The notes under the pieces are model-generated. The model made no database searches. It was not told the DNA's origin and worked only from the letters and a program-made list of their open reading frames with translations. The position numbers were made by a program, and so were the translations under genes. A DNA stretch of 64,000 nucleotides from Amphiura filiformis (taxonomy: Eukaryota > Echinodermata > Ophiuroidea > Amphilepidida > Amphiuridae): contig NC_092636.1 in assembly GCF_039555335.1 (NCBI RefSeq), positions 56,909,706 to 56,973,705 on the forward strand, written 5' to 3'. Positions within the stretch are counted from its first letter, which is position 1. Each line of letters starts with the position of its first letter. This document shows positions 24,130 to 52,861 of this stretch, in pieces.

Positions 24130-24720
24130 TGAAACTCAGCAAATAAACGGCCGATTTTGATGACCTGTGCGATGTGTTAAAGGACATTTTCTACACAACA
24201 CGATCAAGAAAACAGTTTGACTGTAGATCCCAAAACAAAGCTACTATACATGTTCAGAGCATCAGTGAAATTCCATAATCTTACTTCTGGGTAGCGTTTG
24301 TTTGTTCTTGGATGGGTTTGTTATAGTTTTTTTCCAGTAATGATTTCGCCAAGCATCGATCGCGGTAAATGGATCATACATGAAAGTAAGTACCATTGAT
24401 AGCTTTTCTCTTCATGCGTCAATGGATAAGCGGATTAAAACTTGGCCGATCGAAGTCGTTGTGGTTCCTTCTCATCTCTTTCTTCCATGGTCACACTAGT
24501 GGGTATAAGATGCCATGAATGTATCCCTGGGGTGGGGAAAGTTATTAATGAAACCACACAAAAGATGATCTCCCGGCCCCCTCCTCACATATCTGAGGGT
24601 AGGGGTCATAATTGAGCTCCCTATCCCTCCCTTAATAGTGCAACGTAATGCTAATGCATAAATGAATACTCTTATCAATTAGTAGGTTTTTAGCGGGTTC
24701 GCCGTCGGACAAGTTTAGAA

Positions 24721-24764
24721 CTGTCAAGCTTTCGTCAGGAGTAGCTCTGACTTCTTCAGGACAA
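24721..24764 (-). ncRNA. Hammerhead-ribozyme-like motif (left copy 1)
   Basis: The sequence is the exact reverse complement of the motif at 29811-29854 described below. It lies in the first copy of the 701-bp duplication. Confidence 0.4.
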
Positions 24765-25421
24765 AGTACCTAAGAATGAGACATGTAGACCGCCCCTTGT
24801 CTACTGATGACTCTGAAAAGAGCCGTTTGCTGAAACTCAGCAAATAAACGGCCGATTTTGATGACCTTTTTGATGTGTTAAAGGACATTTTCTACACAAC
24901 ACGATCAAGAAAACAGTTTGACTGTAGATCCCAAAACAAAGCTACTATACATGTTCAGAGCATCAGTGAAATTCCATAATCTTACTTCTGGGTAGCGTTT
25001 GTTTGTTCTTGGATGGGTTTGTTATAGTTTTTTTCCAGTAATGATTTCGCCAAGCATCGATCGCGGTAAATGGATCATACATGAAAGTAAGTACCATTGA
25101 TAGCTTTTCTTTTCATGCGTCAATGGATAAGCGGATTAAAACTTGGCCGATCGAAGTCGTTGTGGTTCCTTCTCATCTCTTTCTTCCATGGTCACACTAG
25201 TGGGTATAAGATGCCATGAATGTATCCCTGGGGTGGGGAAAGTTATTAATGAAACCACACAAAAGATGATCTCCCGGCCCCCTCCTCACATATCTGAGGG
25301 TAGGGGTCATAATTGAGCTCCCTATCCCTCCCTTAATAGTGCAACGTAATGCTAATGCATAAATGAATACTCTTATCAATTAGTAGGTTTTTAGCGGGTT
25401 CGCCGTCGGACAAGTTTAGAA

Positions 25422-25465
25422 CTGTCAAGCTTTCGTCAGGAGTAGCTCTGACTTCTTCAGGACAA
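25422..25465 (-). ncRNA. Hammerhead-ribozyme-like motif (left copy 2)
   Basis: Identical to the motif at 24721-24764, 701 bases downstream, within the left terminal repeat of the PLE. It points outward, away from the ORF. Confidence 0.4.
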
Positions 25466-25509
25466 AGTACCTAAGAATGAGACATGTAGACCGCCCCTTG
25501 TCTACTGAT

Positions 25510-25757
25510 GACTCTGAAAAGAGCCGTTTGCTGAAGACTGCCCCTTGTCAACAGAAACTAGCAGATCTCGCCTACCTGCTGATTTTGTAAGTTTTGGTGG
25601 CTCTGAAAAGAGCCGTTCAATGAAGACTGCCCCTTGTCTACAGAGAACTAGCAGATCTCGCCTATCTGCTAATATAAAGGTTTTGGTGGCTCTGAAAAGA
25701 GCCGTTTGCTGAAGACTGCCCCTTGTCTACAGAAACAAGCAGATCTCGCCTATCTGC
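25510..25757 (-). repeat. Left 89-bp repeat array of the PLE with histone-type stem-loops
   Basis: Stem-loops GGCTCTTTTCAGAGCC (minus strand) occupy 25599-25614 and 25688-25703. A variant ending GAGTC lies at 25510-25525, and its duplicate at 24809-24824. Spacing is exactly 89 bases. Each unit also has a second hairpin, AGCAGAT/ATCTGCT, with a 7-base loop. The array is the mirror of the one at 28185-28510. Confidence 0.85.
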
Positions 25758-25806
25758 TGAATGTACGTGATGTGCTGAATGTACGTGATTGCTGAATGTA
25801 CGTGAT
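25758..25806 (+). repeat. Three tandem copies of a 16- to 17-bp motif at the PLE ORF start
   Basis: GCTGAATGTACGTGAT occurs three times in a row. The last copy supplies the ATG (25796) of the first ORF block, so the natural start codon is ambiguous. Confidence 0.8.
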
Positions 25807-27995
25807 TGTCAGAGCCACGATTAATGAAAATCGACAGCAAATGCAACGTATATCCAATGAAATAAATCAAACGTACAATTGGCTTAAAGATAATATGAAT
25901 GAAATGGATTTTAAAACTGTATCACGTGTGGCCAAGATAGCAGCCGACAAAACATACTCACGTGTTAAGCAAGAACATCTTCAGAAATTTGCCCGTCTAA
26001 AACAAGAAAACCTGCCGGTCAACATCCTAAGGCGGGATTGGCGAAATAAGAGTGACTTTCCTCAAAATACAGTCCGCAATGAAAGTAGTAGGGAAAATCT
26101 GAAAATGCTATCTTAAGCAAAGGCATGAATTTCTCACCAACTCCAACGAGCATTCCGGTCAAAAAGTTAATAGCGGCGACCGAACACGGCTTAAAAGACT
26201 TATGTGAAGGTGAAGCCAACCTAGTGCGAAGTGATGTTCTCAGGGTTCTCAAGAAAGCCAAAGTTCCTCAACCAAATATATCTCGAGAAGAGAGAGAAGC
26301 GTTGAATTCACTCAAGAATGATGATTCCATAATTGTCCTTCCAGCAGACAAGGGCGGTCTACCGTTGTTATGGACAAAGATAAGTACCAAGAGAAAATGA
26401 ACAACTTATTGTCTGAAGGCGATACTTATCAGGTCATGAAGAAAGATCCCACCCTATCTCTTGAACGCAAGATAGGTAAGGCCATCTCTGAGTTGAAGGA
26501 ACAGAACAAGGTTGATAAGAAAAAGGCATCACATTTAACACCTAAGCACACTGTGCCTCCACGTATATATGGTCTACCGAAGATTCACAAAGAAAACATG
26601 CCACTTAGACCTATTGTCAGCTCAATCAATTCACCATGCTACAATTTAGCGAAACACCTAGCGGATATATTGACACCCTTATCAGGGAAAGGCACTTCCT
26701 ACATCAAGAACTCGCAACATTTTGTTGAAAAGGCAGGGCAAATACCCATAGAACCAGGTGACTTATTGGTCAGTTTTGATGTGGTATCATTATTCACTAA
26801 TGTACCAATTGATGATGCTAGTAAGATTATAGGAGATATCTTGCGTGATGATGATACACTTAAAAGCAGAACACGCATGACAAGCGATGAGATCGTAGAA
26901 CTTATGAAGTTATGCCTCACATCTACGTACTTCAAATGGCAAGGGAAATTCTATGAACAAAAAGAGGGTCAGGCAATGGGTTCACCCCTCTCCCCAATAA
27001 CATGTAATATCTTCATGGAACACTTTGAAACCAAAGCACTAGATACGTATCCTTTGAAACCCGTTGCTTGGTTCAGATTTGTTGATGACACATTCGTCGT
27101 CTGGCGACATGGCAAAGACGAACTGGTCAAATTCCTAAGTCATCTCAACAATCAACACAAGTGTATCCAGTTCACAATGGAGATTGAGGAGGCGGGTGGC
27201 ATACCTTTCCTTGATGTCAAAGTGCAGAGATCAGACACTAGCTTGAGTTTCGCCATATACCGAAAACCCACTCATACTGATCAATATCTTCATTTTAACT
27301 CTAGTCACCATATGTCTGCCAAGAACAGTGTTGTCAATACACTGGTTCACAGAGCACTGACTCTGTGTGATGAAGAACATCGAAAAGATGAACTCAAACA
27401 CATTGAAAAAGCGTTGAACAAGAATGGCTATCCCTCAAACCTCATTCACAAGGCAATCAAGAAACAGACAGGAGAACGATCAGAAGAATTGGTGGACGAT
27501 GAACACAAAGGCGTTACCTTCATGCCATATATCAAAGGTGTATCAGACAAAATCTGTCGGTTTCTAAACCGATCAGGGGTCAAAACATTCTACTCTTGGT
27601 CGGCCAAATTAAGAGACATCCTAAGCCACCCAATAGATCCTCTGCCCAAGGATCGTGCACCATGTGTGTACTCTATACCTTGCAGTTGTGGTGAGCAATA
27701 CATAGGCCAAACCAAACGACCACTAAAGGTCAGAATATCTGAACACCGAAGAGCCACAAGACAAAAGAAAGAAGAAGGATCGGCATTAGCTGAACATGCT
27801 TGCAAAGAAGGCCATGAACCTCTGTGGGACGAAACAACAAAACTGGCACAAGTTTCTCACTTGGGGATGAGGTTGACCCGTGAAGCGTTGGAAATCAGAG
27901 TTAATGAAACTTCTACTATCAATAGAAATGACGGCAAAGACATCAGTCGTATGTGGCGCTCTCTATTTTCAAACAACCAATCACAGAGCCGCTAA
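25796..27995 (+). pseudogene. Penelope-like RT/GIY-YIG endonuclease, two frameshifts
   Basis: Three frame blocks join to one protein of about 730 residues. The 25796-26116 block passes into the second frame near 26110 (NFSPTPTSIPVKK follows), and the second block passes into the third near 26350, after LPADKGG. Each junction is explained by one missing base. The third block (26370-27995, 541 residues) is intact, with YGLPKIHK at 67-74, motif A SFDVVSLFTNVP (Asp137), motif B GQAMGSPLSP (200-209) and motif C FVDD (237-240), where most PLEs have YVDD. The GIY-YIG domain starts at CVYSIPCSCGEQYIGQTKR (432-450), with R..EHRR and the later REALEI glutamate. It would nick the target and prime reverse transcription. 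Only two lesions suggest a fairly young copy. Confidence 0.92.
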
Positions 27996-28057
27996 TCTTA
28001 TCACATCGTATGTGGCGCTCTCTATTTTCAAACAACCAATCACAGAGCCGCTAATCT
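27948..28057 (+). repeat. 59-bp tandem duplication across the PLE stop codon
   Basis: CGTATGTGGCGCTCTCTATT through GAGCCGCTAATCT at 27948-27998 is repeated at 28007-28057. The first copy encodes the last residues (RMWRSLFSNNQ...) and the stop; the second is in the 3' region. Confidence 0.9.
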
Positions 28058-28184
28058 GTACCACGTCCGCAATTAAGTGATATAAACGCTCATCGTGCAT
28101 ACAATCAATCAATTGGTCCATGAGTGGCCAAACGGTTCCTGGTAAGCCGTATACTTCTATTACAGTATATGCAGTCTACATGTT

Positions 28185-28510
28185 CTCTGTTGACAAGGGG
28201 CAGTCTTCATTGAACAGCTCTTCCTCAGAGCGAACAAAACTTACAAATTCAGCAGATAGGCGAGATCTGCTTGTTTCTGTAGACAAGGGGCAGTCTTCAG
28301 CAAACGGCTCTTTTCAGAGCCACCAAAACCTTTATATTAGCAGATAGGCGAGATCTGCTAGTTCTCTGTAGACAAGGGGCAGTCTTCATTGAACGGCTCT
28401 TTTCAGAGCCACCAAAACTTACAAAATCAGCAGATAGGCGAGAGCTGCTAGTTTCTGTTGACAAGGGGCAGTCTTCAGCAAACGGCTCTTTTCAGAGTCA
28501 TCAGTAGACA
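28185..28510 (+). repeat. Right 89-bp repeat array of the PLE
   Basis: Four units, each about 89 bp, contain GACAAGGGGCAGTCTTCA, a histone-type stem-loop and the hairpin AGCAGATAGGCGAGATCTGCT (one copy has GAGAGCTGCT). The array begins about 190 bases after the PLE stop codon. It is the inverted counterpart of the left array. Confidence 0.85.
28306..28499 (+). promoter_or_regulatory. Histone-mRNA-type 3' stem-loops in the PLE 3' region
   Basis: GGCTCT-TTTC-AGAGCC occurs exactly at 28306-28321 and 28395-28410, with AAC before and ACCA after. A variant ending GAGTC lies at 28484-28499, and a degenerate one (AGCTCTTCCTCAGAGC) at 28216-28231. A 6-bp stem and 4-base TTTC loop with ACCA downstream is the canonical metazoan replication-dependent histone 3' processing element, bound by SLBP. 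No purine-rich histone downstream element such as CAAGAAAGA is visible after the loops. Function in the PLE is an inference. Confidence 0.8.
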
Positions 28511-28540
28511 AGGGGCGGTCTACATGTCTCATTCTTAGGT

Positions 28541-29803
28541 GGGTCATTCTTCGGTAAGGTGCACGTTTGAAGGTTTGGAAAATAGACATTTCAAAATGAT
28601 TTTTCTGTTAATTTTTTTACAGATTAAGAAAGAGACATGTCTCCAGTGTAGTAAAAAGTGTTTGGCCCAATCTTTATTAGCAGCTTGATGTAATTTTTTG
28701 GCTTTTTCTGCAGCTAATGTCATCTCCATCACCGTCGTCATCTCCGTCACAATTGCAACGAAGTTCAACTGATACCAAAAATGTGTCGCACATTGAACAT
28801 TTGTTTTTTACCTACAGAGGAAGGGAGTATAACCAAGAATGTGCAACATATCATTACATTTCCATTTGACCAGTTTTAAGGTCAAAGCAGGGCATTATCT
28901 GTAGAGTGACGGAGATGATGTCAAGGAATGGAAATTCTGCTGTATCATCTCCGTCACGTGACGGAAATGATTCTCTCATAGTGAAAATCACCTTCAAACG
29001 TCATATCCATCACACAATTGTGACGGATATGACGTGATGGTATATTACGAAATTAACAAACTTACGACCTAGTGGTACAACTATAACATACACATGGTCA
29101 ATAAAGGAGGTGAATAGAAATAAACGTACAACTGTTGTAATTTTGAAAAAAGTAAAATAAATAATGCAAACATTTTAGGTATCAGAAGCGTTCGGAGATG
29201 ATGATTAATAAAGGTACCCACCCGTATGAGTGAAGAAATGGTTATAGTTTTGATGAATTTATTGCGCCAACATGAGGAAAAAATGTCCAAATGAATTTAC
29301 TGCATATTGAATTGTGCTCTCTAGGTCAAATAAAGGACCTTACAAAATTGGTATTTTACTCCAGGCGCTTCTAAATTTTCGTGACGGTAGATGACACAGA
29401 CATAGGGACAGGAAATTTTAGACATATAGGGTGAAATTATTTGTACTCCTGGCTATGAAAGATGTGTTACAATAACTTTTTCTACAATATACAATAAATA
29501 ACTTGTCATTCCCGGTGCTTTTTACGATGGTGAAGTTATTCACTAAAAGATATCAGCATCAAAAATTTTGATGACCCCAATCGGGACATGGGGTTTTGCA
29601 GGGTGTGACACCCTGTATAAGCAATTTCCTCGAAAATAAGAACTTCTTTTAATAGTTTGATGTTTTGAGAGCTTTTGAGATATAAAAGGAACGTCAATAC
29701 TAAACAACTGCAAAAAATAAAATTCGAAATCATGTTTCGTATTTTAGTTATGACTCCTGAAAGTGGCGGGACTGCAAACGTGCACCTTACCGAAGAATGA
29801 CCC
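28541..29803. mobile_element. TIR element inserted in the right PLE arm
   Basis: Ends GGGTCATTCTTCGGTAAGGT and its exact reverse complement (about 29 bp of TIR, ending CACGTTTG) are flanked by AGGT (28537-28540, 29804-29807). The left PLE arms give the empty site CTTAGGTACTTTG (as complement), so the insertion and its 4-base duplication are directly supported. The interior has iterated TCATCTCCGTCAC and its complement, but no transposase. The superfamily is not identified; a 4-bp duplication limits the choice. Confidence 0.88.
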
Positions 29804-29810
29804 AGGTACT

Positions 29811-29854
29811 TTGTCCTGAAGAAGTCAGAGCTACTCCTGACGAAAGCTTGACAG
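29811..29854 (+). ncRNA. Hammerhead-ribozyme-like motif (right copy, sense with the PLE)
   Basis: TTGTC (stem I) is followed by CTGAAGA (core CUGANGA), one extra A, stem II GTCAG...CTGAC, then GAAA, a two-base GC, TT (positions 16.1 and 17), and GACAG, which pairs with the stem I strand. The minimal stem III is the layout reported for PLE hammerheads. Weak points are the extra A between core and stem II, and U instead of the usual C at the cleavage position. It is a candidate, not a proven ribozyme. Confidence 0.4.
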
Positions 29855-30683
29855 TTCTAAACTTGTCCGACGGCGAACCCGCTAAAAACATACTAATTGT
29901 TATGAATTCCCGTCGTAAAAGCCTATCCCACAATTTGAATACTCTTATGCTGGTTTCATACTTTCCTGCCGCTTGCCGCTTTGCCGCTCTGAAGATGATT
30001 TTACTTCACTGCGCAATCTCACTAAAAACGCTAGCGGTGACCAGCTAGATATGTGATGGAGTGGTTTGTTATCAGCAGTAGATGTGTGACGAAGTAGTGT
30101 GCTGTTAGTGTTAGCAGTAGATGCTCGATGAAGTAGTGTGCTATCAGCAGTAGATAGGTGATGAAGTAGTATGCTATCAGCAGTAGATAGTGGATGAAGT
30201 AGTGTGTTATCAGCAGTAGATCGGTGATGAAGTAGTGTGTTATCAGAAGTAGATATGTGATGGAGTGGTTTGTTATCAGCAGTAGATAGGCGACCAAGTA
30301 GTGTGCCGTCGGCAGTAGATACTGGATGAAGAAGTGTGTATCAGCAGTAGATATGTGATGAAGTAGTGTGTTATCAGCAGTAGAAAGGTGACGAAGTAGT
30401 GTGCTGTCAGCAGTAGATAGTAGATGAAGTAGTGTGCTACCAGCAGTAGATATGTGATAAAGTAGTATGTTATCTGTAGTAGATAGTGAGAGAAGTAGTG
30501 TGCTATCAGCAGTAGATAGTGGATGAAGTAGTGTGTTATCAGCAGTAGATATGCGATGAAATAGTGTGCTATCAGCAGTAGATATGTTTTGAAGTAGTGT
30601 GCTATAGGCAGTAGATAGTGGATGAAGTAGTGTGCTATAAGCAGTAGATAGGTGGTGATGAAGTAGTGTGCAATCAGAAGTAG

Positions 30684-30795
30684 ATTATCCAATCTTGTCT
30701 GACATTTTCAATTTAAGTATCACTACCGGCCGCACACCAGATGCTTGGAAGCTTTCTAGAGTCATACCAGTCTTGAAGTCCGGCGACCCTCACGC
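30684..30795 (+). pseudogene. Short RT fragment inside the satellite (copy 1)
   Basis: About 112 bp starting ATTATCCAATCTTGTCTG match 31529-31640. The frame includes TTGRTPDAWKLSRVIPVLKS, a motif-0/1 region of CR1/jockey-like RTs. It stops at CCTCACGC, where the satellite resumes, while copy 2 continues. Confidence 0.75.
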
Positions 30796-31528
30796 AGTAG
30801 ATATGTGATGAAGTAGTGTGCTATCAGCAGTAGATATGTGATGAAGTAGTGGGCTATCAGCAGTAGATAGGTGATGAAGTAGTGTGTTATCAGCAGTAGA
30901 TATGTGATGAAGTAGTGTGTTATCAGCAGTAGATAGGTGATGAAGTAGTGTGCTATCAGCAGTAGATAGTGGATGAAGTAGTGTGCTATCAGCAGTAGAT
31001 ATGTGGTGATGAAGTAGTGTGTTATCAGCAGTAGATATGTGATGGAGTGGTTTGTTATCAGCAGTAGATCGGTGATGAAGTAGTGTGCCGTCGGCAGTAG
31101 ATAGTGGATGAAGTAGTGTGCTACCAGCAGTAGATATGTGATAAAGTAGTATGTTATCTGTAGTAGATAGTGAAAGAAGTAGTATGTTATCAGCAGTAGA
31201 TATAGGTAGTGATGAAGTAGTGTGCTATCAGCAGTAGATAGTGGATGAAGAAGTGTGTTATCAGCAGTAGATATGCGATGAAGAAGTGTGTTATCTGCAG
31301 TAGATAGTGGATGAAGTAATGCAATATCTGCAGTAGATAGTGGATGAAGTAGTGTGTTATCAGCAGTAGATATGCGATGAAGTAGTGTGTTATCAGAAGT
31401 AGATATGCGATGAAATAGTGTGCTATCAGCAGTAGATATGTTTTGAAGTAGTGTGCTATTGGATGAAGTAGTGTGCTATAAGCATGCAGTAGATAGGTGG
31501 TGATGAAGTAGTGTGCAATCAGAATTAG

Positions 31529-32000: not shown

Positions 32001-34770
32001 GTGATATGTGATGAAGTAGTCAGTATGTTATCTGTAGTAGATAGTGAGAGAAATAGTGTGCTATCAGCAGTGGATAGGTGATGAAGTAGTGTGCAGTAGA
32101 TAGTGGATGAAGTACTTTGCTGTCAGCAGTAGATAGGTTTTGAAGTAGTTTGCTATTAGCAGTAGATAGTGGATGAAGTAGTGTGCTATTAGCAGTAGAT
32201 ATATGATGAAGTAGTGTGTCATCAGCAGTAGAAAGTGCAGTTGTGTGTTATCATATCAGCAGTACACAGTGGACAAGTATTGTGTTATCTGCAGTAAATA
32301 GTGGATGATGTAGTGTGTTATCTGCAGTAGATAGTGGATGAAGTAGTGCGTTATCTGCAGTAGATAGCGGATGAAGTAGTGCGTTATCAGCAGTAGAAAG
32401 TGCAGTAGTATATGTTATCAGCTCAGCAGTAGATAGTGGACAAGTAGTGTGTTATCTGCAGTAGATAGTGGACAAGTAGTGTGTTATCTGCAGTAGATAG
32501 TGGATGAAGTAGTGTGCTATTATCAGTAGATATGTGATGAAATAGTGTGCTATCAGCAGTAGATAGATTTTGAAGTAGTGTACTATCATCAGTAAATAGT
32601 GGAGGAAGAAGTGTGCTATCAGCAGTAGATATAGGTAGTGTGTTATCAGATGTTATAAGTAGATATGTGATGAAGTAGTGTGCTATCAGCAGTAGATAGT
32701 GGATGAAGTAGTGTGTTATCAGCAGTAGATATGTGATGAAGTAGTATGTTATCTGTAGTAGAAATTGGATGAAGTAGTGTGTTATCTGCAGTAGATAGTG
32801 GATGAAGTAGTGCGTTATCTGCAGTAGATAGTGGATGAAGTAGTGCGTTATCTGCAGTAGATAGCGGATGAAGTAGTGCGTTATCAGCAGTAGAAAGTGC
32901 AGTAGTATATGTTATCAGCTCAGCAGTAGATAGTGGACAAGTAGTGTGTTATCTGCAGTAGATAGTGGACAAGTAGTGTGTTATCTGCAGTAGATAGTGG
33001 ATGAAGTAGTGTGCTATTATCAGTAGATATGTGATGAAATAGTGTGCTATCAGCAGTAGATAGATTTTGAAGTAGTGTACTATCATCAGTAAATAGTGGA
33101 GGAAGAAGTGTGCTATCAGCAGTAGATATAGGTAGTGTGTTATCAGATGTTATAAGTAGATATGTGATGAAGTAGTGTGCTATCAGCAGTAGATAGTGGA
33201 TGAAGTAGTGTGTTATCAGCAGTAGATATGTGATGAAGTAGTATGTTATCTGTAGTAGAAATTGGATGAAGTAGTGTGTTATCTGTAGTAGAAATTGGAT
33301 GAAGTAGTGTGTTATCTGCAGTAGATAGTGGATGAAGTAGTGCGTTATCTGCAGTAGATAGTGGATGAAGTAGTGCGTTATCTGCAGTAGATAGCGGATG
33401 AAGTAGTGCGTTATCAGCAGTAGAAAGTGCAGTAGTATATGTTATCAGCTCAGCAGTAGATAGTGGACAAGTAGTGTGTTATCTGCAGTAGATAGTGGAC
33501 AAGTAGTGTGTTATCTGCAGTAGATAGTGGATGAAGTAGTGTGCTATTATCAGTAGATATGTGATGAAATAGTGTGCTATCAGCAGTAGATAGATTTTGA
33601 AGTAGTGTACTATCATCAGTAAATAGTGGAGGAAGAAGTGTGCTATCAGCAGTAGATATAGGTAGTGTGTTATCAGATGTTATAAGTAGATATGTGATGA
33701 AGTAGTGTGCTATCAGCAGTAGATAGTGGATGAAGTAGTGTGTTATCAGCAGTAGATATGTGATGAAGTAGTATGTTATCTGTAGTAGAAATTGGATGAA
33801 GTAGTGTGTTATCTGCAGTAGATAGTGGATGAAGTAGTGCGTTATCTGCAGTAGATAGTGGATGAAGTAGTACGTTATCTGCAGTAGATAGCGGATGAAG
33901 TAGTGCGTTATCAGCAGTAGAAAGTGCAGTAGTATATGTTATCAGCTCAGCAGTAGATAGTGGACAAGTAGTGTGTTATCTGCAGTAGATAGTGGACAAG
34001 TAGTGTGTTATCTGCAGTAGATAGTGGATGAAGTAGTGTGCTATTATCAGTAGATATGTGATGAAATAGTGTGCTATCAGCAGTAGATAGATTTTGAAGT
34101 AGTGTACTATCATCAGTAAATAGTGGAGGAAGAAGTGTGCTATCAGCAGTAGATATAGGTAGTGTGTTATCAGATGTTATAAGTAGATATGTGATGAAGT
34201 AGTGTGCTATCAGCAGTAGATAGTGGATGAAGTAGTGTGTTATCAGCAGTAGATATGTGATGAAGTAGTATGTTATCTGTAGTAGAAATTGGATGAAGTA
34301 GTGTGTTATCTGCAGTAGATAGTGGATGAAGTAGTGCGTTATCTGCAGTAGATAGTGGATGAAGTAGTGCGTTATCTGCAGTAGATAGCGGATGAAGTAG
34401 TGCGTTATCAGCAGTAGAAAGTGCAGTAGTATTTTATCAGCTCAGCAGTAGATAGTGGACAAGTAGTGTGTTATCTGCAGTAGATAGTGGATGAAGTAGT
34501 GTGCTATTATCAGTAGATATGTGATGAAATAGTGTGCTATCAGCAGTAGATAGATTTTGAAGTAGTGTACTATCATCAGTAAATAGTGGAGGAAGAAGTG
34601 TGCTATCAGCAGTAGATATAGGTAGTGTTTTATCAGATGTTATAAGTAGATATGTGATGAAGTAGTGTGCTATCAGCAGTAGATAGTGGATGAAGTAGTG
34701 TGTTATCAGCAGTAGATATGTGATGAAGTAGTATGTTATCTGTAGTAGAAATTGGATGAAGTAGTGTGTC

Positions 34771-37700
34771 AAGGCCTACATTAGCACATATTGATTCCAG
34801 AGCAACAACATCCATCAATACAAGAGACTGTCTTAATATTCGTTTATGGAACCCCACGTCGGTCAGACATAAAACTACATCTGTATCTGACTGCCTTATT
34901 GGCGATAATGTTGACATTATGTTTATAACAGAAACGTGGTTAAATCAGAATGATAATGTTGTAATTGGTGAATGTAGCCCTCCAGGGTATTCGTTTGTTA
35001 ATGTACCCAGAGGTACAAGTGATCATGGTGGCATTGCAATAATCTCCAAAAGTTCTTTGAAACTGCACACTGTTCAGATTCAACATAGTGTTACCACCTT
35101 TGAATCTGCTTCTGTAATTGACCCGGCTTATGGCATTCAATATATTGTTATCTACAGACCCCCTCATTCCAAAAAGAATGGATTATTAACATCTACCTTT
35201 CTTAATGAGTTTGAGGATTTCATGGGTGAGATAGCCTTGTTCCCAAATAAGGTTGTGTTACTCGGGGATTTCAATGTGCATGTTAATAAACCATGGAAAT
35301 CTGATGTCAGACGATTTTTGACGTGCCTTGAGGTCTCTGGGTTTCACCAACACGTTAACCAACCCACTCACAGGTCTGGTAACATTTTAGATTTGATTAT
35401 TTCAAGACCTGAAGATAATCTTGTTCAAAATTGTGTTTCTCAAGGCATTTTCCTGCCGGACCATAGCATTGTTCATTGTTACCTGAATCGGAAAAGGCCA
35501 TCTCAAACCAAGAAACCCAGTAGAGTAAGGAATTATAAACTCATTGATAATGAGCAATTTAGAAGTGATCTTATTACTAAACTGGAATACTTTACTGAAC
35601 TTAATGATCCCATTGACAATTTGGTTATCTTATTTGATAGCAAGGTCCGGGATATTCTTGATCACCACGCCCCTGAGGTTGTTAAAATGCGCACGGTAAG
35701 AACCCGCTTTCCATGGTATAATAGTACTATCAAAGAAGAAAGGCAAGCGCGTAGAAAGTTAGAACGTAAATGGCGCAAGACCGGATCTGATGAGGATAAG
35801 CGAGCTTATCTTGATCAAAAGAATGCTGTTAATAATCTTATTGATTCTGAGAAAGCTAAATTCTATCAAAACAAATTTGCGAATAGCGATGTCAAGGGTA
35901 TGTTTCAGAATGTAAAAACCCTTCTCAACCAAAATACGCGTATCCTCCCTTCCTCAGACTCCACTGTGAGTTTGTGCAACCAGTTTGCCACTTTCTTCAA
36001 TGACAAGGTCACCACAATCAGAGAAGGTCTTGATTTGCATCCTGGTACCCAATCTCAATTTGTTGACTACTGCACTGAACATGTGTTCAGTGATTTCATG
36101 TTGGTCTCTGAAAAGGATGTTTGCAAACTTGTCAATGCTTCCTCCACCAGTACTTGTATTCTTGATCCAATCCCTACTTGGTTGATGAAAGACCACATTG
36201 AGCGTTTTATTCCATCAATTACTCATATCACTAATGTGTCTCTCTCATCTGGTATTTTCCCAGAACCTCTGGGCAAAGCTGTTATATCTCCTATCATTAA
36301 GAAACCTTCTCTTGATCATGATGAACTTAAAAATTACAGGCCGGTATCAAATGTGTCTTTTATATCCAAACTCATTGAAAAGGTTGTAACTCAGCAAATA
36401 ACAAATCATATCAATGACTGTAATTTAGGTGAAATCTATCAATCGGCTTACAAAGCCAACACAAGTACAGAAACCGCTCTCTTAAAGGTGAAAAGTGATG
36501 TGTTGAATGCCGCAAACAGGGGAAGTTGTCCTTCTTGCACTTTTAGATCTGTCTGCGGCATTCGATACCATCGACCACGGTATCATGCTCAAACGTTTAC
36601 AGGATAGAATTGGTTTGTCTGGTAATGTATTGCAATGGGTTCGTACATATCTTAATTGTAGAAGTAGTCGTGTATTTATTGATGGTTGTGTTTCCAATTC
36701 TAGCCCCCTTGTATTTGGTGTTCCACAGGGTTCTGTGATTGGGCCAATGATGTTTGTTATTTATACCTTGCCAGTGGGGGACATAATTCGTAAACATAAT
36801 GTCTCATTTCATATATATGCAGACGATACACAATTGTATGTTTCCTTTTGTCCTAACATCCCGGGTGCTGCTGAGAAGGCGTTGCAAAAACTTGAAGCCT
36901 GTATCCACGAACTGCAAAACTGGATGAATATAAATAAACTCAAACTGAACAGTGACAAAACGGAATCTTTCATTGCTGGATCCCATTATCGCCTTCAAAA
37001 GCTTCCGAATCTTGAACTCAAAGTTGGCCAAAGCATTATAAAACCATCTCCAAATGTTCGCAACCTCGTGGTGATTTTTGACAGTCATATGTCTATGACA
37101 AAACAGGTGAACTCCATCGTTTCCTCTGTCAACCTCCAGCTTCGCAACATCAGAAGAATACAGCATCATTTGGATACGGACACTAAACATCATGTTGTCC
37201 GGACCCTTATACTTTCGCGTTTGGACTATGGTAACAGCCTTCTCTACGGACTCAAGTCTCAAGATCTTCGCCGCCTTCAATCCCTTCAACACAAAGCAGC
37301 TAAGCTAATTTTCTCCGTTCCTAGACGTACTGATCCAAAACCTCTCATGAACAATCTTCATTGGCTTCCGATAAGCAACCGCATCCAATTCAAACTCTGT
37401 CTTTTGATTTATAAGTGCCTGACTGACTCTGCTCCACGATACCTCATCGATTCAATTAGTCTTAAGCCAACACCTTCCAGTGGCCCTGTTACAAGATCTG
37501 CCCTGGACAGAACTCTCCTAAACATTCCCATGTACAAGTTAACCTGTGGTGATAAGTCATTTACAGCTGCTGGACCGTCCATCTGGAACAGCCTGCCACG
37601 GAACATACGGGAAGCTTCTTCACTCACACAATTCAAAAAGCTGCTGAAAACTCACTTGTACAATTTTTAGTATTTTTCATTTTGTCTTTACATTGACTTT

Positions 37701-37805: not shown

Positions 37806-38627
37806 TATGTATCTGCAGTAGATAGCGGATGAAGTAGTGCGTTATCTGCAGTAGATAGCGGATGAAGTAGTGCGTTATCAGCAGTAGAAAGTGCAGTAGT
37901 ATATGTTATCAGCTCAGCAGTAGATAGTGGACAAGTAGTGTGTTATCTGCAGTAGATAGTGGATGAAGTAGTGTGCTATTATCAGTAGATATGTGATGAA
38001 GTAGTGTGCTATCAGCAGTAGATAGATTTTGAAGTAGTGTGCTATCATCAGTAAATAGTGGAGGAAGAAGTGTGCTATCAGCAGTAGATAGGTAGGGTGT
38101 TATCAGAAGTAGATATGTGATGGAGTGTGCTATCAGCAGTAGATAGTGGATGAACTAGTGTGTTTACAGCAGTAGATATGTGATGAAGTAGTATGTTATC
38201 TGTAGTAGAAATTGGATGAAGTAGTGTGTTATCTGCAGTAGATAGTGGATGAAGTAGTGTTCTATTAGCAGTAGATAGAAGATGAAGTAGTGTGTTATCA
38301 ACAGTAGATGTGTGGTGATGAAGTAGTATGTTATCAGCAGTAGATAAGTGGATGATGTAGTGTGTAGTGTTATCAGCAGTAGATAGTGGATACAGTAGTG
38401 TGCTATCAGCAGTAGAAAGTGGATGAAGTAGTTTGCTATCAGCAGTAGATAGTGGATGAAGTATAGTGTGTTATCAGCAGTAGATATTGGATGGAGTAGC
38501 GGCTAATCAGCAGCAGATAGGTGATGAATTACGTGCTTTCAGCAGAAGATGGTAGATGAAGTACTGTGTTATCAGCAGTAGAGAGTGGATGGTGTGTTAT
38601 TAGCAGTAGATAGTGGATATAGTAATA
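37806..38627. repeat. 33-bp satellite array, right part
   Basis: The same monomer and part of the 497-bp higher-order unit (marker near 37885) continue after the LINE. Monomers become more divergent towards 38600. Confidence 0.9.
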
Positions 38628-49801: not shown

Positions 49802-50629
49802 ATTAGCCAGGCGATGTCGGTGTGCGGCCCTGAACACAAAACAGAATACGTGTGAGTTTTCATGTTCATGTTTTCAAACAATAGAGGAGAGTCATGCATT
49901 TCAGCACTTGCTGTCTTCCTTGGGCGTCCATGCATGTTTCCTATGGATGGCGGAAACCTTCAAAATACGCCTAAGAATACGCCTAAGAATACGCCTAACC
50001 TTAGACGTCTAAGATGCATTCTTAGGCGTCTAAGATGCAATCTTAGGCGTCTAAGAAATTCGCGGTAGACTTAAATCAACGAATCACAGGACTAGAAATC
50101 CCAAACAACCAATCATCTTAGGCGTATTCAATTATTGACCAATGAAATCTTAGACGCCTAAGATTTTACACGCCTAAGAATTCTTACACGTCTAAGATTG
50201 ACCATTTGACCGTGACTAGTGATGGACGGTATCGCAAATTCGATCAAAACGTACAACGGACGCTGTGCGTTAGAGAATATTTCGAACAATGGCTGGGTGG
50301 TGTGTTTTTAATAAACTCCTTTTCTCTCCATAGCCACCGCGTCAATCCCAAAGAGAAAGGGGGTGATGGGGTGGGAGGGGGATAGGGTACATGTTCCCCC
50401 ACCTTTCGGCACAATGGCCCATTGTTTTGTTCTTTTCAGCCACTTTTTGACAATTCAGGCTGAACAATGTATTTTACATAATAGGTTTTTTTTTCATTTG
50501 AACATAATCTAGCAGCTGATGTTGTTGTTGCAAACTGATAAAACTTTAATTTGTTTTAAATAGTTTGTTTTTCTGATGACTTGCAGTTAATGTAAGATTT
50601 CTATTTGTGTGGCTATAGTGTAAATGATG

Positions 50630-51947: not shown

Positions 51948-52861
51948 TATATATGTTTTTTCTTAACACGTATGGTATGACTGAGCCAAAATACACAGTT
52001 AAGAGACCTCGATACCTCCATTCAACAAGAAAGTTAACCTGACGGTGTAGGGTATGATGTGTTTATAACTCGAACAGCGTGTGACATATTTTCGCTAAGG
52101 CCCCCGGGCCAAGGCCAAATCGTCTTTTATAATTGAAGAGATCAGATATGCATAATTTCAGTCTGCAAAGTGCAAGAAGACAAGAGGTCAAATTTGCTAT
52201 GTTAAAAATAGAATCATGGAGGTATATAAATATATGCTAGGCATGTTTGTTCCTCTTTGTTGTTTGTGTATTAATTTTCATCATCATCATCATCATCATC
52301 CTCATCATATCATCATCGTCGTCATCGTCGTCGCCGTCATCATGCTCATCAACTACTCCTAGCCACACCAACAGCACACCAAACCAACGAAAATAAAATC
52401 AAACCAATTAATCAATTTTGCTGCAAGTCCTCAGAGAAAATCACATTGGTGATACCGTCCATCACTAAAATATCAATCTTAGACGTGTAAGAATTCTTAG
52501 GCGTGTAAAATCTTAGGCGTCTAAGATTTCATTGGTCAATAATTGAATACGCCTAAGATGATTGGTTGTTTGGGATTTCTGGTCCTGTGATTCGTTGATT
52601 TAAGTCTACCGCGATTTTCTTAGACGCCTAAGATTGCATCTTAGACGCCTAAGAATGCATCTTAGACGTCTAAGGTTAGGCGTATTCTTAGGCGTATTCT
52701 TAGGCGTATTTTGAAGGTTTCCGCCATCCATAGTTTCCTTCCCGGGGTTTCCTCTTTCCGTGGGTTGGTTTCCAGACTTGCGGTTCTCACCCATTCTTAG
52801 TTATTTTTGTCTTACGGTTAGTGTGAAACCAATATATTTTAGTATCGGGAGAAATATTTTA

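Follow-up and report, generated by a model that had tools for sequence, protein, structure and literature searches.

A stretch of 64,000 nucleotides from the brittle star Amphiura filiformis (contig NC_092636.1, hereafter the window) contains a Penelope-like element (PLE), truncated at its 5' end and inserted in fold-back form, whose 3' region carries tandem hairpins matching the stem-loop at the 3' end of replication-dependent histone mRNAs. We tentatively favour, at something short of an even chance, a reading in which these histone-type loops were captured by the element and act as an SLBP-binding tag, not as an efficient cleavage site. The array suggests, as far as the DNA can tell, the borrowing of host cell-cycle-linked RNA machinery.

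Scanning the window for GGCTCTTTTCAGAGCC with up to three mismatches returned seven copies, four of them exact (two on each strand) and three with a single mismatch (two on the minus strand, one on the plus strand; Table 1). Shuffled controls had a mean of 0.28, and none out of 100 reached seven. Together with a degenerate hairpin at 28215-28232, these account for all eight stem-loop positions of the original prediction, which had also placed AAC and ACCA flanks on the right-hand exact pair. Those flanks are there, but are not restricted to the right: a 23-mer, AACGGCTCTTTTCAGAGCCACCA, encloses all four exact loops (28303 and 28392 on the plus strand, 25595 and 25684 on the minus strand) and so gives the left-arm exact pair the same flanks. 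This 23-mer, which we take to be near or equal to the echinoderm histone 3' consensus, would turn up by chance in 64 kb with an expectation of 1.8e-9 if all bases were equally frequent. When the window was scanned against all Rfam families, Histone3 (RF00032, the histone 3' untranslated region stem-loop) reached its gathering score of 34 bits at four places, two in each arm (34.9, 34.9, 34.8 and 34.8 bits, each with E 2.3e-6); the three one-mismatch copies scored 19.9 bits each, below that threshold. The canonical loops share with the histone mRNA 3' end (RF00032) a 6-bp GGCUCU stem and a UUUC loop followed by ACC, and differ from it in being tandem, in having no histone open reading frame (ORF) and in having no clear U7-type purine element behind them.

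The 89-bp period claimed for both sides was recovered by Tandem Repeats Finder (TRF), with 2.8 copies at 25512-25762 and 3.5 copies at 28186-28497, and the two arms are a single inverted repeat of 294 nt with two mismatches (25469-25762 and 28247-28540). The outermost left-hand loop (24809), however, does not add a fourth unit to the array; it was generated by a tandem duplication with a period of 701 bp, the copies of which (24130-24834 and 24831-25535) are identical at 701 of 705 positions. Because the arms are one inverted repeat and loop 24809 derives from this duplication, the eight positions come down to roughly four units that are independent: two with canonical loops, one with a G-U variant and ATCA after it, and one with a broken loop. 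The 701-bp duplication (24130-25535) either postdates the insertion or is possibly an assembly effect, and its junction has a few bases (TGAA) in common.

The outer limits of the stem-loop arms coincide exactly with those of a single insertion. A paralogous empty target site on the minus strand (29905-29772) matches the left flank over 99 of 102 nt and the right flank over 32 of 33 nt; the flanks meet in it between AAAGTACC and TGGGTC, which leaves a target-site duplication of 0-1 bp (T). With the arms at the insertion ends, the array belongs to the PLE, and the two other origins that the original prediction had allowed for, an independent minisatellite or histone-cluster debris, are unlikely. 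We consider debris of a histone gene cluster scarcely credible: the loop sequence speaks for it, but tblastn of the four core histones against the window found no coding match (best E 0.39), and the arms end where the insertion ends. It is also very improbable that a fold-back DNA transposon or a minisatellite with loop-bearing terminal repeats was later entered by a PLE. The 290-nt inverted ends do consist partly of tandem repeats, as those of fold-back elements do, but only 17-mer repeats separate the left arm from the truncated ORF, and these look like slippage by a reverse transcriptase at the inner junction. Moreover, the PLE ORF is the only one of at least 120 aa inside the element, although no search was aimed at transposases, and a PLE form with this structure has been published (PMC3846280).

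The presence of loops on both sides is an ordinary outcome of PLE insertion and not a feature of the stem-loops. In the proposed route a recent, 5'-truncated PLE would have been inserted as a fold-back, with cDNA of the element RNA joined at both cut ends: on one side the longer product, which consists of the truncated ORF and the 3' region, and on the other about 290 nt of the 3' end in inverted orientation. According to PMC11167929, the protein of an Anolis PLE cuts both strands and extends both, and no difference in the RNA start site was apparent; cutting and extension of this type would produce inverted ends such as those seen here. The empty-site comparison offers a clear example of a fold-back PLE insertion in which hardly any of the target was duplicated, as would be predicted were cDNA synthesis primed from both cut strands. 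The element end (28521-28540) matches the target beside the insertion (28540-28555) at 16 of 20 nt; a likeness as good arose in four of 500 shuffles of the last 67 nt but in 36 of 500 shuffles of the whole arm, and target homology of the element end is only suggestive.

By its sequence, the ORF between the arms is that of an endonuclease-bearing (EN+) PLE. It matches Pfam RVT_1 at 7.1e-11, as a PLE-type reverse transcriptase, and a protein search gave 2281 proteins at E<=0.001 among 8000 candidates scored. Relatives are named here from the best 120 of these 2281: the top match was P0001 (83% over 99% of the query), and the closest relatives with a species name, P0002 (87% over 71%) and P0006 (96% over 49% of the query), are both from A. 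filiformis itself. Nine aligned proteins have in common the invariant residues Y434, C438, Y444-I445-G446, T448, R450, R455, E458-H459 and E505, and the aligned P0043, P0059 and P0097 carry PF01541, consistent with a C-terminal GIY-YIG endonuclease; Pfam GIY-YIG was not called at E<=1 for this protein, P0001 or P0110. Compared with P0001 by tblastn, the ORF lacks 78 N-terminal residues and has frame changes near 26095 and 26350. A PDB sequence search with the ORF gave no matches, and none of five pattern-matched stretches in viral contigs encodes a relative of the PLE protein. For ORFs read through the array, one protein search gave no candidate with three shared words and another gave a single candidate, with nothing at E<=10. 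A 52-bp direct repeat with a 59-bp period (27947-28057) spans the last PLE codons and the stop codon. A promoter at 27947-28110, considered by eye from a CCAAT within this 52-bp duplication and a TATA-like sequence at 28081, is not claimed, as the CCAAT lies inside the end of the ORF.

The fold-back PLE form with pseudo-long terminal repeats (pseudo-LTRs) is already published. In PMC3846280, Pen2 of Adineta vaga is described with pseudo-LTRs in inverted orientation on either side of a 5'-truncated ORF and with no target duplication, and the pseudo-LTR of Pen2a takes in the start of the ORF; measured against this description, the inverted and partly tandem repeats and the 5' truncation of the present element are those of a PLE with pseudo-LTRs. 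It shares with Pen2 (PMC3846280) and with Poseidon of Anolis carolinensis (PMC11167929) a reverse transcriptase with C-terminal GIY-YIG residues, a truncated 5' end, 3' repeats that stand inverted at either end and little or no target duplication. It differs from the two in the tandem histone-type stem-loops of its 3' region, in that no hammerhead was found in the element, in that no ORF start was seen by eye at the element end and in an insertion site that is not AT-rich.

What the loops might do for the RNA depends in part on what lies around them. The original prediction placed a histone-type element behind the PLE ORF and suggested that it may form a non-polyadenylated 3' end; the histone-type sequence, its sense orientation and its place at the element termini all hold, but cleavage at the loops is disfavoured by an uncut template and by the want of a clear purine element. 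In the reading that takes cleavage at face value, SLBP and the U7 small nuclear ribonucleoprotein would cut PLE transcripts a few nucleotides past the stem-loop to give a non-polyadenylated mRNA, with read-through RNA as the transposition template. We judge this unlikely. An exact loop with its flanks in the sense orientation is in accord with it, as is the lack of AATAAA or ATTAAA ahead of the element end: when AATAAA, ATTAAA, AGTAAA and TATAAA were looked for between the stop codon and the element end, only TATAAA was found, at 28081, and AATAAA occurs in the flank, first at 29100 and again at 29119. No clear purine-rich U7 site, on the other hand, lies in the usual place past the two canonical loops. 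As the original prediction had stated, a U7-type purine element is absent downstream, in that GAAAG, AAAGA, AAGA and GGAGA do not occur in 28270-28560, a result of simple patterns only, from which the host's own U7 may differ. CAAG is present at four places (28284, 28373, 28462 and 28509) and AGAG at one that lies outside the stems (28441). Three stretches tried against the U7 core 9-mer paired weakly (-4.1 to -4.3 kcal/mol), and GACAAGGGGCGG, the sole purine block to follow a loop closely, comes after 28499 and thus stands behind the altered loop.

The arms themselves also bear on cleavage. Both begin 40 nt beyond the last loop and hold two canonical loops uncut, from which it follows that the RNA templating the insertion was uncut at the loops, provided that the template was sense RNA; PMC3846280 considers antisense templates too, and with such a template the argument would fail. 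Passage of the template through every loop uncut is the reason that an SLBP-binding tag is preferred here over an efficient cleavage site. It is nonetheless compatible with cleavage of the mRNA, since in vitro the main insertion substrate of the Anolis PLE was unprocessed RNA and hammerhead cleavage was dispensable for insertion (PMC11167929).

Under the preferred reading, the stem-loop would have been taken from the end of a host histone mRNA and then have spread from unit to unit of the array, and it would tag the PLE sense RNA for binding by SLBP, which may tie stability, translation or nuclear access to S phase. In the predicted fold of the 545-nt sense 3' region the canonical loops form with pair probabilities of 0.82-0.99. 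The functional proposal draws on sequence identity and position in one dead copy in one window, and several observations weigh against it. This copy is dead, by truncation and by frame changes. The loop is broken in one of the four right-hand units and altered in another, so the array does not support selection on the loop; the unit is better kept outside the loop, where 23 of its first 24 columns are identical across all four. In the predicted sense fold the outermost loop is seldom formed (pair probability 0.27-0.32). Read in antisense, the hairpin has a GAAA tetraloop of the GNRA class, a motif common among RNAs. Two further points concern the insertion: the site is not of the AT-rich ATT type of the Anolis PLE, and no ORF start is visible by eye at the element end, unlike in the pseudo-LTRs of Pen2a from A. 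vaga.

Several of these points are shared by the view that the array is an inert passenger whose tandem unit contains a stable hairpin that is perhaps of use as an antisense GAAA tetraloop or to the PLE protein and that matches the histone element by accident. The broken and altered loops would fit such a coincidence, as would the antisense pair probabilities, which are 0.98-1.0 for the two canonical hairpins though only 0-0.11 for the outermost. Exact matches to an 18-mer, GGCTCTTTTCAGAGCCAC, numbered eight in 257 Gb of prokaryote contigs against 7.5 expected by chance; at seven of the eight loci Histone3 scored 21.2-33.1 bits at the matched place (E<=0.5), none reaching 34, and the eighth, L007, had no Histone3 match at E<=0.5. 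Since chance loci score up to 33.1 bits, the Histone3 score reflects mostly the stem itself. The chance-level near-match at 33.1 bits (L004:637-682) lies in AT-rich DNA on a contig of a Clostridiales metagenome-assembled genome. A 22-mer had no matches in viral contigs. It has to be kept in mind, too, that the window is one of an unknown number that were read, and a search effect of this kind would weigh toward coincidence. Against coincidence stand the tiny expectation for exact 23-mers given above, the sense orientation of the loops and their E value against all Rfam families, and we hold it to be doubtful.

Minimal type I hammerheads in PLE pseudo-LTRs were reportedly described by Cervera and de la Pena in 2014. 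Hammerheads in pseudo-LTRs are usual, though not universal, in PLEs, and none was found within this element, either by Rfam at E<=5 or by a motif scan that covered both strands; the copy may have lost one with its missing 5' end. Antisense core-like boxes in two of the 89-bp units were tried as a hammerhead and rejected, as neither passes a motif scan that requires the stems. A hammerhead motif is present instead in the target repeat of about 134 nt, all three copies of which in the window have CTGAAGA, a 5-bp stem II, GAAA and a 5-bp stem I. The motif scan gave these three in the window, whereas 100 Markov controls averaged 0.02 and never exceeded one; Rfam did not call the motif at E<=5 in the window or at E<=10 at the empty site. 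It fits, by its sequence elements, the minimal type I design lacking helix III that PMC7761336 describes for hammerheads of PLEs. The hammerhead-bearing pseudo-LTRs of that description have in common with the present element small structured RNA motifs, often tandem, in the repeat region; they differ in that the element here bears histone-type loops and the hammerhead motif sits in the target repeat (PMC7761336). A broader proposal, which we regard as distinctly unlikely, is that this PLE lineage swapped the usual hammerheads of its pseudo-LTRs for tandem captured histone loops, with SLBP setting the 3' end or fate of the RNA, so that an S-phase mRNA would be made and read-through RNA would serve as the transposition template.

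In the open-licence literature (subscription journals, preprints and Repbase fall outside this scope), PLEs were not found paired with the histone stem-loop, nor A. filiformis with Penelope; nor was the histone stem-loop found paired with "transposable element" or RF00032 with "retrotransposon", whereas pairings of histone stem-loop with "transposon" and of SLBP with "retrotransposon" do occur. If the preferred reading is true, a retroelement would be another user of SLBP and retrotransposition would be linked to S phase through a defined RNA element, which could help to explain the role of small ribozymes in PLE repeats.

Table 1. Features of the fold-back element, its stem-loops and its target (window coordinates).
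Feature	Position	Strand	Basis or remark
Whole inserted element, fold-back Penelope-like element	25472..28539	+	self-BLAST, empty-site alignment
Left arm, inverted copy of element 3' end, 2.8 units of 89 bp	25472..25762	-	inverted-repeat alignment, TRF
Right arm, element 3' end in sense orientation	28247..28539	+	inverted-repeat alignment
PLE coding region, reverse transcriptase and GIY-YIG motif	25805..27995	+	tblastn of P0001, Pfam RVT_1, protein alignment
Tandem array, 3.5 units of 89 bp, histone-type or degenerate stem-loop in each	28186..28497	+	TRF, unit alignment
Degenerate first stem-loop, 5-bp stem	28215..28232	+	
Exact histone-type stem-loop, flanks CAAAC / ACCAA	28306..28321	+	motif scan, Rfam
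Exact histone-type stem-loop, flanks TGAAC / ACCAA	28395..28410	+	motif scan, Rfam
Outermost-unit stem-loop, one G-U pair, then ATCA in place of ACCA	28484..28499	+	
Exact stem-loop, left arm	25688..25703	-	motif scan, Rfam
Exact stem-loop, left arm	25599..25614	-	motif scan, Rfam
One-mismatch stem-loop, outer unit of left arm	25510..25525	-	
Outer stem-loop copy borne by 701-bp tandem duplication	24809..24824	-	no separate array unit
17-mer, 3.1 copies, junction of left arm and truncated ORF	25755..25808		TRF
Tandem duplicate, left flank and outer end of left arm	24130..24834		pairs with 24831-25535, period 701
Minimal type I hammerhead motif in target, left of insertion	25427..25460	-	motif scan
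Second motif copy, within duplication	24726-24759	-	
Hammerhead motif in empty target site	29816-29849	+	
Paralogous empty target site, 134 nt	29772..29905	-	same hammerhead motif within

Elsewhere in the window there is a second fold-back, with 261-nt inverted arms (49941-50201 and 52473-52733) that are 99% complementary and 2271 nt apart; it holds short internal tandem repeats of the CTTAGGCG type. Long arrays of a 33-bp minisatellite lie at 30046-31459, 32003-34769 and 37810-38618, and flank a pair of ORFs (34766-37670) that by eye resemble those of a non-LTR retrotransposon.

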